From positions 1-20,189 of the forward strand of contig CAIQEX010000382.1 of NCBI GenBank assembly GCA_903870955.1: a DNA stretch of 20,189 nucleotides, in the 5' to 3' direction. Of this stretch, positions 6,194 to 13,573 are shown piece after piece (position 1 is the first letter of the stretch; each line of letters begins with the position of its first letter). The position numbers and the translations under genes are program-made. The notes beneath the pieces were generated by a model. The model had not been told where the DNA came from and searched no databases. It saw only the letters and a program-made list of their open reading frames with translations. Origin of the DNA: an uncultured beta proteobacterium. Lineage in GTDB: Bacteria; Pseudomonadota; Gammaproteobacteria; Burkholderiales; Burkholderiaceae_C.

Positions 6194-7135
6194 TTATTGC
6201 TGTTGTTGCTGCTGCTGTTGCGCCTGTCCGAACAACTCGGCATGTGTGGGCGGCTGGCAGCCCGCACGGGTGCAGTTGATGGCGGCCGCACGCATGGCAT
6301 TCTTCAAGGTATCGCCGACGCTGGCCGCGGCGTTGTCGGCTTGCAGGGTCCAGTCGGCCAGGCAGTTGCCCCAGAAGGTGTCGCCAGCACCCACGGTGTC
6401 GATCACGCGTACTTGCGGAACGCCATCCTGCGCCCACTGGCCATCCACGCTAAGCCATGCGCCATCGCCACCAAAGGTCAGCGCAATGCGGCTGGCACCT
6501 TGGGCGGCAAAAGATTGGGCAATGCTGGCGGCGGTGTCTTTATTGGCCGCGCCAAAGCCCAGCAACTCCAGATCTTCGTCGCTGGCTTTGATCCAGTCGG
6601 CGAGTGCCGCGACCTGCTGCACGGCGGCCACATAGGCGCCCAGGTCGGCAGCCAATTTGGGGCGTAAATTCACGTCCACACTAATCGTCCAACCCTGCGC
6701 CTTGGCCCCTTGCAGCACCGCCAGCACCTTGTGGTGTTCGGGGGGCACCAGCATCAGCGAGCCGGTGTGCAGCACACCGGGCGTTTGCTGCGCGAGCACG
6801 TGCAGCACTTCGTCCACGCTGTAATCGCGGTCGGCGATGCCTTCGCGATAAAAGCCGTAGCTGGGTTGGCCATCTTTCACCTGCACCACCGCAAGCGAGG
6901 TCGGCAGACGGCTGTTGCCCAACATCATCTGCACCTTGTCCTTGGCCAATTGCGCCTGCATCTGCTCGCCGAACTGGTCTTGTGAAAAACGGTTCAAAAA
7001 GCTGACGTTGGCACCGCGCAAAGAAGCGGCCCGCGCCAGATTGAAAGGGCTGCCGCCGACATGGGGACGCAGCAGGCCATCGGCCGTGGCGACGCAATCC
7101 ATCAAAGCTTCACCGAGTACGAAAATGGAGGTCAT
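6194..7135 (-). CDS. PfkB-family sugar kinase, fructokinase-like
   Basis: A cytoplasmic ribokinase/PfkB-fold kinase of 313 residues that most likely phosphorylates fructose or a related sugar with ATP. The N-terminal PfkB signature is at 27-36 ([10 protein letters not shown]). The C-terminal signature DTVGAGDTF is at 246-254, with the catalytic base at about D252 in the GAGD anion hole. VLGEALMD at the start and the [12 protein letters not shown] segment resemble bacterial fructokinases. I chose ATG 7135 because the family begins there; an in-frame ATG at 7180 adds 15 unrelated residues, and neither has a strong ribosome binding site. The C-terminus ends in eight consecutive glutamines, which is odd for this family. 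It diverges from a transaldolase/aldolase homologue at 7269, suggesting linked hexose-phosphate metabolism. Exact sugar specificity is inferred. Confidence 0.88.
6197..6220 (-). repeat. CAG/CAA trinucleotide tract encoding C-terminal polyglutamine
   Basis: Eight consecutive glutamine codons (mixed CAA and CAG) form the last eight codons before the stop of the sugar kinase. The tract is directly visible as TTG/CTG triplets on the plus strand. Mixed codons make slippage less likely than in a pure repeat, but four triplets (6209-6220) keep runs of similar composition. The tail lies beyond the conserved kinase fold and would probably not affect catalysis. Confidence 0.9.
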
Positions 7136-8789: not shown

Positions 8790-11700
8790 CTATCCACACG
8801 TCCCAACGTGACCACACTGGGTGCAGTAGTCACAACCGTCCTTGCGAATAACGGCATAGGCACCGCATTCGCCACACTTCTTGCCAACCATCGCCGGGGG
8901 CGATGCGGGGGCGCTGACCGATTCGTCCGAATGTGCAGCAGCGTTTGCATGGGCGACGGGTGACTCGTTGCGGTGCGCGATGATTTGCTGGATGGCATAG
9001 GCAATAGCGGCCACTTCAGAGTCGTGCCAGAGCGGCACCAGCGAACCATCGGCCTTGAGGTAAGTGCCCAGGCGCACTGGACCACGGTCCCAGGCGACCT
9101 TGCGCATGTCGCGCAGCGCACGTTCCAGAAAGCCGCCACGGGCCGCCAACGACAGCAGGCGCATGCTGGAGGTAATCCACTGCTGCGACTCGCCGCTTTG
9201 TCCCAGCGGCATAAAGAACTCAATGGCGCGTTGCACCGTGCTCTTGCCATCTGCCGTGGGCACAGGCAGGAAGGAAGCCACGATGTAGAGCGTCTTGTGG
9301 CCTTCCTGGGTCCAGTACTCGATCTTCTCGGCCACCGCCGACAGCGCACCCTTGGGCCGCTTTTCGATCACGGTGCGCATCGGGTCGACAGGCGCTGCGA
9401 CCGCCGGGGCTGCCGGCTTGGTAACTGCGCCGGTGTCCAGCACCGAGCCCAGAATGGCGTTGGGGCGGTATGTGGCGAGACCCTTGAGGCGTGCGCGCCA
9501 GGCTTGCTGATACAAGCCCTTGAAATCGTCATAGGGATAGTCGGCGGGCACGTTCACCGTCTTGGAGATGGCGGTGTCCACCAGCGGCTGCACCGCCTCC
9601 ATCATGGCGATGTGGTCGCTGGCTGCCATTTCCAGCGCCGAGACAAAGTACTCGGGCAACTTGTTGACGTCGCCGCCCAACTCGCGGTACAGACGCCAGG
9701 AATGGTCTTCCACCGCGTATTCGCTGGTGGTGCCGTCGGACTCGCGCTTCTTGCGGCGATACATCCAGGAGAAAGCCGGTTCGATTCCGTTCGACGCGTT
9801 GTCGGCAAAGGCCAGGCTGACGGTGCCGGTGGGCGCAATCGACAACAGATGGCTGTTGCGGATGCCATGTTCACGAATCGACTTCTGAATGTCGGCTGGC
9901 AGGCGACTGGCAAAGGTGCCGGGAGCCAGATAACCGTCCGCATCAAATTTGGGGAACCGGCCCTTCTCTTGTGCCAGTTCCACCGAGGCGCGGTAGGCAG
10001 CATCGCGCATGCAGGTGGCAATGCGCTTGGCCATTTCGCGGCCTTCTGCACTGTCATAGCGCAGGCACAGCATGGTCAAGGCATTGCCCATGCCGGTAAA
10101 GCCGACGCCGATGCGGCGTTTGGCTGCAGACTCTGCGCGTTGTTGTTCCAGTGGCCAGAAGGTCACATCCAGCACGTTGTCGAGGGCGCGCACTTGCGTT
10201 GCGACCGATTTGGCAAAGGCGTCAAAGTCGAAGTCGGCAATGCCATCGAAACCAAAGGCGTGGCGCACGAAGCGCGTCAGAATAATCGGCCCCAGATCGC
10301 AGCAACCATAGGGTGGCAAGGGTTGCTCACCGCAGTTGTGTGCATGCAGACCGTTGGCGTCAAAGGCGTGGACATCGGAAACGGTGACGTCAAAAACTTC
10401 TTCCACACCGTCTTCCAGAATGGATTCCACGGTGGTGGTAAATCGCTCGCGGTTCAGGCTGCGACGGAAGCCGCCCAGCAGTTCGTCTAGACGTGCGGCC
10501 TTGTCGGCGTCGCAAAAGCCCACACGATCTGCAAACACTTGCAGGTTGTCACCACTGACCATCAGTTCGTGCTGTGCCTGCGTGTCATACAAAGCCGTAC
10601 CGCCTTTGCCGTCCGGCAGGACAGATACAGAAGCCGTGCGGCGGTTGCGATAGAGCGTGCTTACCACGCCCAGGCGCAAAAGCATGCGCTGCGCGCTTTG
10701 CAACAAGGCCTCGTCGCTTTGCGAGAGGCGAACGCTGACGCCCTTGTCCTGCGTGCCCTGCACCGAGCCATCGGCATCAAACAGGCCGCGCAAGGTGGCG
10801 GCAACGAACTCGGAAGAGCCGCGCTCCATGGCGGGGGTCAGGGTCTTGTGGCCCACTTCCAGTCCGAAGGAGAAGGCCAGATCGCGCAAAGCTGCAGAGG
10901 CCAAACGGCGCTCGCCGCGCCCGGCGATGGGGCGCTGGAATCCTGCAAAGTCGGCGCGATGAGCCAGGGTGGCGGCAGCCGCCTCGGCCGCTTCGATAAC
11001 ACCGGCCACGCCGGATCGCGTATGAATCGCGCTACCGTTGCCAACCTCCTTGAACTCCGGTGCCCAGACCGAAAGCACCGCCTTATCCATCTTGAGCGTG
11101 CCGTCGCCAATCAACAGCCCCAACAAATAGCCTTCCGCCGCTGTTCCCTGCCCTTCCCAACCGCCCAGGCTGCGGTGATTTTGCAGCAGCAACTCGTCAC
11201 CGGCTTGCAGATCGCCTGCGGCAACCCATTCAGTCTGCAGCGCATAGCGCGTCTTGTGGGAGACGCGGCGCACACGGTGGTCAGTCGTCATACGCAACCG
11301 ATAGCCTGCTGTGGTTTGCAGCGACAGCACAGCCTTGACGCCAGTGGAAAAGAAACCTTGGCTCTCAACCGGGTAGGCGCGGCCATCGACCACGGCACTG
11401 AAGCTGCGGCCCAGCAGATCGGCCACCTGCGCGGCGCCATCGGTGGTCATGACCCAGGTGTCGGCTGTGACACACGGGTTGGTGGCCGCAATGTCTTCGC
11501 AATACGACAGGTTGTTGTCCTGGTTGATATGGTCCAGAAACAGAATGCCGGGCTCGGCGAAGTCGTAGGTGGACTTCATTACGGTGTCCCACAACTCACG
11601 CGCGGGCAGGGTCTGATATACCCATAAACCATCTGCACGCTGATAGGCACCGTTGGCCATGATGTCCGCACCGGGCTTCGCGCGGTGTACCAACTCCCAG

Positions 11701-12365
11701 GAGGCGTTGTCGTCCAGGGCGCGCATGAAGGTGTCTGGCATGCCGACCGACACATTGAAGTTGTTCCAGCGACCCGGTGTGCGTTTGGCGGTGATGAATT
11801 CCAGAACGTCCGGATGGTCAATGCGCAGCACACCCATCTGGGCGCCACGGCGTGCACCGGCACTCTCGACCGTGGAGCAGGACTGGTCAAACACGTTGAT
11901 ATAGCTGCACGGACCGGAGGCCATGCTGTGCGTGCCCTTGACGTCGGCCCCCTTGGGGCGAATGCGTGAAAAGTCGTAACCCACGCCACCGCCACGGCGC
12001 ATGGTCTCCGCAGCCTCGCGCAGGGCTTCGTAAATGCCGGGATAACCGCCATCGTCCACACCCTGGATGCAGTCGCCCACGGGCTGTACAAAGCAGTTGA
12101 TCAGGGTGGCCTGGATGTCGGTGCCTGCAGCACTCATGATGCGACCGGCGCCAATGGCTCCGGCATACAGATTTTCCAGGAACACCACTTCATAACGTTC
12201 ACGGTCGGCTTCTTTTTCGACGCTGGCCAGAGCGCGGGCAACGCGCTTGAAGACATCGGCGTAACCGGTTTCACCCGGCTTGAGGTATTTTTCTTTCAGC
12301 ACATCGTGGCTGATGGGTTGCACTTCGCTATGTTGGGAATCTGTTGCGGAACGGTCGCGTTTCAT
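8790..12365 (-). CDS. nrdJ: Adenosylcobalamin-dependent class II ribonucleotide reductase, intein-containing precursor
   Basis: NrdJ reduces ribonucleotides to deoxyribonucleotides with a B12-generated thiyl radical, so it needs no oxygen. The precursor is 1191 residues. Removing the intein (298-677) leaves an 811-residue enzyme. The catalytic motif N-P-C-G-E is formed by N296, P297 and C678-E680; C678 is the expected radical cysteine. C91 (LINCFV) and C689 (C678+11) fit the reducing pair of class II enzymes. APTGTVS (844-850) is the phosphate-binding loop, and the finger-loop region IGVGFTGMGNAL is intact. The C-terminal part resembles the extended NrdJ form and ends in a cysteine cluster (C1164, C1167, C1178, C1181, C1184, C1190), a possible zinc ribbon or redox arm. 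ATG 12365 is the first family-like start; its ribosome binding site is weak. No B12 riboswitch box was seen upstream. Confidence 0.95.
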   Translation of the reverse strand: MKRDRSATDSQHSEVQPISHDVLKEKYLKPGETGYADVFKRVARALASVEKEADRERYEVVFLENLYAGAIGAGRIMSAAGTDIQATLINCFVQPVGDCIQGVDDGGYPGIYEALREAAETMRRGGGVGYDFSRIRPKGADVKGTHSMASGPCSYINVFDQSCSTVESAGARRGAQMGVLRIDHPDVLEFITAKRTPGRWNNFNVSVGMPDTFMRALDDNASWELVHRAKPGADIMANGAYQRADGLWVYQTLPARELWDTVMKSTYDFAEPGILFLDHINQDNNLSYCEDIAATNPCVTADTWVMTTDGAAQVADLLGRSFSAVVDGRAYPVESQGFFSTGVKAVLSLQTTAGYRLRMTTDHRVRRVSHKTRYALQTEWVAAGDLQAGDELLLQNHRSLGGWEGQGTAAEGYLLGLLIGDGTLKMDKAVLSVWAPEFKEVGNGSAIHTRSGVAGVIEAAEAAAATLAHRADFAGFQRPIAGRGERRLASAALRDLAFSFGLEVGHKTLTPAMERGSSEFVAATLRGLFDADGSVQGTQDKGVSVRLSQSDEALLQSAQRMLLRLGVVSTLYRNRRTASVSVLPDGKGGTALYDTQAQHELMVSGDNLQVFADRVGFCDADKAARLDELLGGFRRSLNRERFTTTVESILEDGVEEVFDVTVSDVHAFDANGLHAHNCGEQPLPPYGCCDLGPIILTRFVRHAFGFDGIADFDFDAFAKSVATQVRALDNVLDVTFWPLEQQRAESAAKRRIGVGFTGMGNALTMLCLRYDSAEGREMAKRIATCMRDAAYRASVELAQEKGRFPKFDADGYLAPGTFASRLPADIQKSIREHGIRNSHLLSIAPTGTVSLAFADNASNGIEPAFSWMYRRKKRESDGTTSEYAVEDHSWRLYRELGGDVNKLPEYFVSALEMAASDHIAMMEAVQPLVDTAISKTVNVPADYPYDDFKGLYQQAWRARLKGLATYRPNAILGSVLDTGAVTKPAAPAVAAPVDPMRTVIEKRPKGALSAVAEKIEYWTQEGHKTLYIVASFLPVPTADGKSTVQRAIEFFMPLGQSGESQQWITSSMRLLSLAARGGFLERALRDMRKVAWDRGPVRLGTYLKADGSLVPLWHDSEVAAIAYAIQQIIAHRNESPVAHANAAAHSDESVSAPASPPAMVGKKCGECGAYAVIRKDGCDYCTQCGHVGTCG
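10335..11474 (-). mobile_element. Full-length LAGLIDADG intein inside NrdJ
   Basis: A 380-residue protein intron, in frame, between NrdJ residues 297 and 678. Block A starts with the nucleophile Cys in CVTADTWVMTTDG. Block B is MTTDHRV (359-365) with the T-x-x-H pair T360/H363. Block F is EEVFDVTVSDVHAFDANG. Block G ends in HAHN, with penultimate His and terminal Asn, followed by Cys+1. Both ends were checked codon by codon (TGT at 11474-11472, AAC at 10337-10335). The central part carries a dodecapeptide homing endonuclease with YLLGLLIGDGTL (413-424) and LRGLFDADGSV (525-535). The catalytic aspartates D421 and D532 are both kept, so the endonuclease could be active. All splicing residues are present. 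Inteins at RNR active sites are known in other bacteria; whether this allele is described cannot be told here. Confidence 0.95.
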
Positions 12366-12765: not shown

Positions 12766-13458
12766 TCAAGCCGAGGCAGCCTGCTCAAAAGCCTTCAATG
12801 CTTTTTGCTGCGCCGTGAGGGCGGTATTGCGCTGTCCGAGGTCGGTTAGCGCTGAGCCCACCGTGCCCGAGGTGGCCAACTCTTTTCCATTGACTGCATC
12901 CATCTTCTTGCCGACCAGCGCCAAGGCGCTGCGCACAGCTGCGCCATCGCTTGCCAGCGAGGTGGCAAACTTTTTGGCATCCTGCAGCAGGCTGCCATCG
13001 CTTTGCAAGGTCAAGCCCAATTTTTTCATGGCGTCCGCCACGGCCGGGTCGGAACGCAGGGCTGACTTCGCGTCATTGATCACACGCTTGGCACTGTTGG
13101 TCGTGGCGGTGGATGTTGAACTATTCGCTGCGACGTTTGCAGCACCGACAGCCGCATTGAATTTCTTGAAGAAGCTACCCAAGGCAGAGGTCACAAGCTC
13201 GGGCGTGGCCGTGTAAGACAGTTGGGCCAGCGCCTGTGCTGCGGCCTGTCCGTCCACCAGGGCCGACTTAAGCAACCCGAACTTGGAAAGCTGCGCCGTC
13301 GTCGCATCCAGCGCGGACTGAACGCGCTGCTCGGCTTTGAGCAGCAGAGATGACGCCGCGTTGACCGAAGTGGCAGCCTGCGTTGCACTGCTCCCGCTGC
13401 CGATGCCGCTGCCCGTTGTCCCCGAGGTGTTGCCGCTCGATAGTGAATTGACATTCAT
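12766..13458 (-). CDS. Hypothetical Ser/Thr/Gly/Ala-rich protein
   Basis: A 230-residue protein that I do not recognise. The first 40 residues (MNVNSLSSGNTSGTTGSGIG and onward) are low-complexity Ser/Gly/Thr, like the flexible ends of exported axial or surface proteins. The remainder is Ala/Lys/Leu-rich and probably helical, with recurring S-A-L and V-x-x-A-L-x-x-L patterns near 45-85 and 150-210. There is no cleavable signal peptide and no membrane helix. No catalytic motif is visible. ATG 13458 is preferred over an in-frame GTG at 13470, which adds four residues. Codon usage and reading-frame length argue it is real; the competing plus-strand frame across the same stretch (12743-13216) is shorter. 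It stands alone between nrdJ and the HDOD gene, in the same direction. A structural or flagellum-related role is possible, but only speculative. Confidence 0.7.
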   Translation of the reverse strand: MNVNSLSSGNTSGTTGSGIGSGSSATQAATSVNAASSLLLKAEQRVQSALDATTAQLSKFGLLKSALVDGQAAAQALAQLSYTATPELVTSALGSFFKKFNAAVGAANVAANSSTSTATTNSAKRVINDAKSALRSDPAVADAMKKLGLTLQSDGSLLQDAKKFATSLASDGAAVRSALALVGKKMDAVNGKELATSGTVGSALTDLGQRNTALTAQQKALKAFEQAASA

Positions 13459-13573
13459 CGTTTTGTCCACGCCATTGCGCCAAGTTGACGCAGAAAAGAT
13501 CCCAGACTAAACGCCCACCCCGCGCGCAAGTCCGGAATATGCAGCACCATTGCAGCGCATTTATGAATCGGTG

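Follow-up and report, generated by a model that had tools for sequence, protein, structure and literature searches.

The nrdJ gene of an uncultured beta proteobacterium, which encodes a class II ribonucleotide reductase (RNR), carries an intein between Pro297 and Cys678 of its 1,191-amino-acid product, directly before the cysteine that is predicted to carry the thiyl radical. The gene lies in a 20,189-nucleotide stretch of DNA (contig CAIQEX010000382.1 of assembly GCA_903870955.1; the whole stretch that was analyzed is called the window here). We put the probability of a mobile class 1 LAGLIDADG intein belonging to the allele rir1-b at roughly 90%. The placement before the radical cysteine is not new, and the intein is a real, intact, mobile-looking new member of what is probably a catalogued allele.

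The nrdJ gene and its intein

nrdJ is a single uninterrupted open reading frame (ORF) of 1,191 codons plus a stop codon (window 12365..8790, minus strand), and the intein coordinates given in the original prediction (10335..11474) proved exact to the base, corresponding to residues 298 to 677 (Table 1). The product scored 548.8 bits with the NCBIfam model NrdJ_Z (TIGR02504; cut-off, 399.95 bits), 397.7 and 31.2 bits with the Pfam models Ribonuc_red_lgC and lgN, respectively, and 82.4 bits with LAGLIDADG_3 (PF14528); the Pfam model Intein_splicing reached 31.9 bits in the protein and 35.3 bits in the genome search, both slightly below its cut-off of 35.8. The model score, the radical cysteine, the redox cysteine pair, and the Asn and Glu of the NxCxE motif together mark the predicted product as a class II RNR of the NrdJ type.

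Table 1. Features of the intein-containing nrdJ gene in the window
Feature	Position in window	Strand	Length or remark
nrdJ with intein, class II (adenosylcobalamin-dependent) ribonucleotide reductase precursor	8790..12365	-	1191 aa
N-extein, residues 1-297, C-terminal end ...IAATNP, contains Cys91	11475..12365	-	
Intein, residues 298-677, CVTADTW...GLHAHN	10335..11474	-	380 aa
Intein Cys1 codon, splicing nucleophile 1	11472..11474	-	invariant in 49/49 inteins, own included
N-terminal splicing region, blocks A and B, intein Thr63 and His66	11142..11474	-	approximate boundary
LAGLIDADG endonuclease region, intein Asp124 and Asp233	10470..11141	-	approximate boundaries of our choice; PF14528 at protein residues 519-616
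C-terminal splicing region, blocks F and G, Asp362, His379, Asn380	10335..10469	-	
Cys678 codon, C-extein +1 nucleophile, predicted thiyl-radical cysteine	10332..10334	-	aligned to 1xje_A residue 322
C-extein, residues 678-1191, Cys689 and cysteine-rich C-terminal tail	8790..10334	-	

The genome is a draft of 787 contigs with 86.84% completeness and 5.58% contamination, and an assembly or binning artifact might be suspected on these grounds, but the probability of this is negligible, given the in-frame single ORF, the precise junctions, and the recurrence of this arrangement at 48 further loci, of which 16 come from records whose titles do not mark them as metagenome-assembled genomes (MAGs).

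The intein was aligned with those of the 48 genome loci (49 sequences in total; 44 to 81% identity to our intein by tblastn and 45 to 81% in a second comparison). Blocks A, B, F, and G, whose residues the original prediction called visible, are all present, and the catalytic residues Cys1, Thr63, His66, Asp362, His379, and Asn380 are invariant in all 49 inteins, as are Asp124 and Asp233 of the LAGLIDADG motifs. With its nucleophile, the TxxH motif of block B, the Asp of block F, the terminal His-Asn, and a Cys at +1, the sequence reads as that of a canonical class 1 intein, and the two LAGLIDADG motifs with their acidic residues point to a homing intein. An AlphaFold2 model of the intein alone (pLDDT, 91.5; pTM, 0.91) has a predicted HINT fold; its best PDB matches in a Foldseek search were the intein-endonucleases TliVMA, PI-SceI, and PI-PfuI, which likewise combine a HINT splicing domain with a LAGLIDADG domain but share only 13 to 16% identity with our intein in the structural alignments. 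The host of PI-SceI is VMA, and so is that of TliVMA, unlike the NrdJ host here; PI-PfuI corresponds to the Pyrococcus RIR1-1 intein, called PfuRIR1-1 in the available text of PMC7090010. A profile search of PDB sequences matched the inteins of DnaB, GyrA, and RecA, among others. An AlphaFold2 model of the 1,191-amino-acid precursor, built from a 40-sequence alignment, was too poor (pLDDT, 54.8; pTM, 0.44) and was discarded. The intein of one aligned locus (L028) has about 28 extra residues near its C-terminal part that are absent from the other rows shown (every second row was displayed).

Insertion at the predicted radical cysteine

In a phmmer alignment with the Thermotoga maritima NrdJ structure (1xje_A), intein Cys1 (residue 298) and the +1 Cys (residue 678) both fell on chain residue 322, which we take to be the radical cysteine of that enzyme; on this alignment to a solved class II RNR, the claim that the +1 splicing nucleophile and the radical cysteine are one and the same residue held, and Cys678 is therefore predicted to fill both roles. 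Cys689 fell on chain residue 333, and Cys91 fell on the cysteine of the LSACF motif of 1xje_A; Cys91 is presumably the counterpart of the N-terminal cysteine in the RNR redox pair. Residues corresponding to Cys678, Cys689, Cys91, Asn296, and Glu680 serve as catalytic or redox residues in class II RNRs. Among 40 precursors, our own included, position 678 was Cys in all 40, Asn296 and Glu680 (NxCxE) were kept in all 40, and the extein residues Cys91, Cys688, and Cys689 were invariant. Residues 688 and 689 (window 10299-10304, minus strand) form a double cysteine at the redox position, with Cys688 being extra relative to Cys689; Cys688 is constant in these 40 close precursors, but several hosts among the gamma- and alphaproteobacteria have Ser or Ala in its place.

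In RNRs, the radical cysteine is located on a finger loop that connects two half-barrels, according to the available text of PMC9669993, so at its predicted position the intein would part the half-barrels at the catalytic loop. This anatomy supports the view that the unspliced precursor would be inactive. Because the catalytic cysteine is also the predicted +1 nucleophile, imprecise loss of the intein should be fatal to the enzyme. The gene is a clear example of an intein that takes the catalytic cysteine of its host for its own +1 nucleophile. Inteins are described in the available parts of PMC7765530 and PMC5874633 as preferring active or otherwise critical sites; no statement that an intein +1 residue is the radical cysteine was found in the literature text at hand, and such a statement may be in print elsewhere.

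Sporadic distribution and probable mobility

We compared 100 genomes of the genus, our own included, of which 59 contained an NrdJ-type match of at least 180 bits to NF005401, a model whose cut-off of 906 bits was reached by no match in this sample; a match of at least 180 bits was missing in 41 of the 100, many of them incomplete. The intein was present in 5 of the 59 NrdJ-bearing genomes (G000, G003, G008, G074, and G089) and absent from 52, with 37 of these read as uninterrupted NPC[GA]E and 15 judged from a contiguous match span, while G055 (partial) and G064 (contig ending at the site) were left unassigned. The 37 empty sites read directly supply, within the same genus, the intein-free alleles of close relatives to which the original prediction had pointed. 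Four genomes (G014, G018, G077, and G097) have a second, weaker NrdJ-like match on another contig (238 to 263 bits; ORFs of 548 to 617 amino acids).

A host-gene tree built from 40 rows of the genus places the five carriers on five separate branches, each with an empty sister; they require five changes, all of them forced by starred branches. Shuffled labels gave a mean of 4.9, so the carriers are not clustered. Among the host genes, the one nearest to ours (L073; 96% identity) is empty, and our host gene has a short end branch (0.011) in this tree. In the intein tree, our intein forms a clade with those of L083, L084, and L085 (support, 100). An AU test on the host genes rejected this clade (P = 0.0099; the group was picked post hoc from the intein tree); when unconstrained, the host tree pairs our host gene with that of L083, with a weak support of 51. 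Identity to L085 is 85.3% for the intein and 73 to 74% for the host, and identity to L003 is 69.5% for the intein and 82 to 83% for the host. The dN/dS ratios in comparison to L085 were about 0.09 for the endonuclease and about 0.10 for the splicing region, with dS near saturation, and about 0.03 for the host in comparison to the empty relative L073; owing to these low values, both the host and the intein look functional. The sporadic distribution, the intact empty sites, and the discordance with the host phylogeny point to a mobile element and not a fixed switch.

Co-conversion was scanned in 38 bins of 20 codons, and the two largest identity shortfalls against empty genes (measured against empty-empty pairs) lay at most 60 codons from the insertion. 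These bins, -60 and 0, correspond to window 11595-11654 and 10275-10334, and the host DNA there is more diverged from the empty genes than empty pairs are from each other, a pattern that, picked out post hoc, is suggestive of a co-conversion tract. With five carriers on five branches, each with an empty sister, the genus is well suited to measuring homing among betaproteobacteria from the environment.

The same insertion site elsewhere and the catalogued allele

The best 120 of 4,363 protein matches, our own included, all read TNP^C...HN^CGE (with ^ marking the junctions), and NP^C...HN^C(G/A)E was found at each of the 48 genome loci, with Cys at +1 throughout. The titles of these loci cover beta-, gamma-, and alphaproteobacteria, one Bacillota, one Bacteroidota, and two Heimdallarchaeota bins. 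The Heimdallarchaeota bins (L046 and L047) carry, at this very position, an intein 44% identical to ours, compared to only about 31% for the host NrdJ, and these identities suggest an old transfer between domains. The Bacteroidota locus (L004, a Chitinophaga pinensis bin) groups with Malikia (Comamonadaceae), with supports of 100 for the intein and 97 for the host, and its contig is probably mis-binned.

On viral contigs, at least 80 loci matched, and junctions were read in 61 of them (19 partial or weak matches were left out): NP^C with N^CxE was found in 52 of the 61, an insertion one residue later (NPC^) in 4, and one elsewhere in 5. The related inteins of the four viral loci L116, L138, L147, and L149 sit at NPC^C or NPC^S, so that two adjacent insertion sites, NP^C and NPC^, flank the predicted radical cysteine. 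Eighteen records of the phage collection matched (14 Bacillus and 4 Staphylococcus phages, several named SPbeta or SPbeta-like), all with identities of <60%, as did two plasmid records, also with <60%; the best identity to a viral contig among the matches listed was 46% (best segment). A phage or plasmid was considered as the vehicle, and no recent viral donor of our copy was found among the matches listed.

An allele is defined as a distinct insertion position in the text used of PMC4071816 (2014), which names members of rir1-b, including those of Acidovorax CF316, Acidovorax NO-1, Polaromonas JS666, Delftia, and Rhodanobacter, and does not contain the insertion-site coordinates. Each of the CF316 and NO-1 genomes has just two PF02867 matches, and the NrdJ match alone is interrupted, at NP^C; by elimination, the allele of our intein is therefore probably rir1-b. 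The inteins of CF316 (L006) and NO-1 (L008) occupy the same NP^C site as ours with 69% and 67% identity, respectively, and the rir1-b members differ from our intein by sequence divergence only.

Three other RNR inteins invite comparison. NrdJ-1, whose host we take to be a class II RNR, presumably lacks an endonuclease and is presumably inserted one residue further, at NPC^S. It is likewise named for a class II RNR gene, but it is split and has a +1 Ser (PMC13123727, available text). The NrdJa intein of Azotobacter chroococcum NCIMB 8003 (residues 321-690), compared by its description, is a LAGLIDADG intein of about the same size in a class II RNR and is absent from Azotobacter vinelandii, as far as the available text of PMC4465626 goes. 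The intein of Aquifex aeolicus NrdB (R2) is also a LAGLIDADG intein within an RNR active-site motif, where it lies between di-iron ligands; it has been shown to splice and affects iron loading, and it differs from the NrdJ intein in RNR subunit, class, and site (PMC8772380, available text).

The -1 proline

Proline occupies the -1 position in all of the best 120 of 4,363 proteins and in all 48 genome loci. A -1 Pro was reported to be incompatible with splicing elsewhere and to compromise the fidelity of NrdJ-1 (PMC13123727, in the text available), so the suggestion that the proline is native here and may slow splicing raised a fair question as to the residue itself; it signals no special weakness of this intein, since Pro precedes every intein read at NP^C. 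Inteins at NP^C must have a way round the incompatibility, or they splice slowly. The reported incompatibility would also fit a degenerate intein in which the -1 Pro blocks splicing, NrdJ is silent, and class I RNR supplies all dNTPs, and the 41 genus genomes without an NrdJ-type match of at least 180 bits, many of them incomplete, make the enzyme seem dispensable. We nevertheless judge a dead intein to be very improbable: the exteins are under strong purifying selection and have a short end branch, every splicing residue is intact, the frame is open throughout, and the identical proline recurs in all proteins and loci counted above. This set with its invariant -1 Pro provides natural inteins for asking how splicing tolerates a residue that halts model inteins, a question useful to protein engineering, and we regard it as the part of the finding most worth specialist testing.

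dNTP supply and the question of conditional splicing

The original prediction held that splicing gates the dNTP supply from NrdJ and might act as a redox or other regulatory switch on DNA synthesis. Our genome encodes an intein-free class I large subunit, NrdA, and a small subunit, NrdB, and splicing of NrdJ can therefore not gate the aerobic dNTP supply; an intein-free second RNR large subunit is likewise present in each of the 16 further carrier genomes checked (those of the 48 loci that are not titled as MAGs; large subunit only). NrdD had no match in our draft genome, whereas the control search found it in 6 of 14 genomes, so NrdJ may be the only oxygen-independent RNR of this genome and splicing may matter for the oxygen-independent part of the supply. 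The gating claim thus fails for the supply as a whole and may stand for this part.

A switch by which redox state, metal, or oxygen would turn on NrdJ for oxygen-independent dNTP synthesis appears quite unlikely to us, and no result obtained here lends support to regulated splicing or a redox response. Cys689 lies near the C-terminal junction in sequence, and we assume that Cys91 lies near the insertion junction in the folded enzyme; the proximity of this redox pair keeps the idea conceivable, as does the invariance of Cys91, Cys688, and Cys689 in all 40 precursors. By anatomy, splicing must come before catalysis (finger loop; PMC9669993, available text), NrdJ is perhaps the only anaerobic enzyme here, and inteins with an active-site Cys can be oxidation sensitive (PMC4031507, available text). 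The distribution argues against a switch, with carriers making up only 5 of the 59 NrdJ-bearing genomes and each having an empty sister, and so does the presence of NrdA and NrdB. Within the intein, Cys1 is the sole invariant cysteine, the next column being Cys in 8 of 49 sequences at most; an intramolecular disulfide switch within the intein as a conserved feature was ruled out, since there is no second conserved cysteine. No NrdR-box-like site with at least 12 of 16 matches to the consensus used was seen in the window. Oxidation- and metal-sensitive inteins were noted in the available text of PMC4031507, which as of 2014 found no evidence for physiologically relevant conditional splicing; that of PMC7765530 (2020) is more open to regulated splicing. 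Searches of the window yielded no cobalamin riboswitch, no Rfam family at gathering score, and no tRNA. A more specific variant is quite unlikely as well: a splicing center adapted to the obligatory -1 Pro, with splicing coupled to how the half-barrels fold round the finger loop, would make maturation of the only oxygen-independent RNR a controlled step dependent on conditions. The sporadic occurrence and the single conserved intein cysteine speak against splicing as a regulatory switch on DNA synthesis, and a regulatory role is not needed to explain the intein.

A probable mobile intein at the predicted catalytic loop

For the mobile intein that we favor, we infer both splicing and DNA cutting. 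The intein would fold after translation, and Cys1 would accept the N-extein from Pro(-1) through a thioester linkage; the N-extein would then pass to Cys678 (+1), and Asn677 would cyclize, joining NP to CGE. This ligation would close the finger loop that joins the half-barrels, with the +1 nucleophile becoming the radical cysteine. The endonuclease would be expected to cut empty NPCGE-coding alleles, into which the intein would be copied. NP^C may be favored because the site is nearly invariant and because imprecise loss would kill the enzyme.

Two further features of the window lie outside nrdJ. The ORF of a PfkB-family kinase has a run of eight glutamines directly before its stop codon (window 6197-6220, minus strand), and a Ser/Ala-rich protein with a weak FliD_C match (20.9 bits, below the cut-off) is encoded beside an HDOD gene at window 12766-13470 (minus strand).
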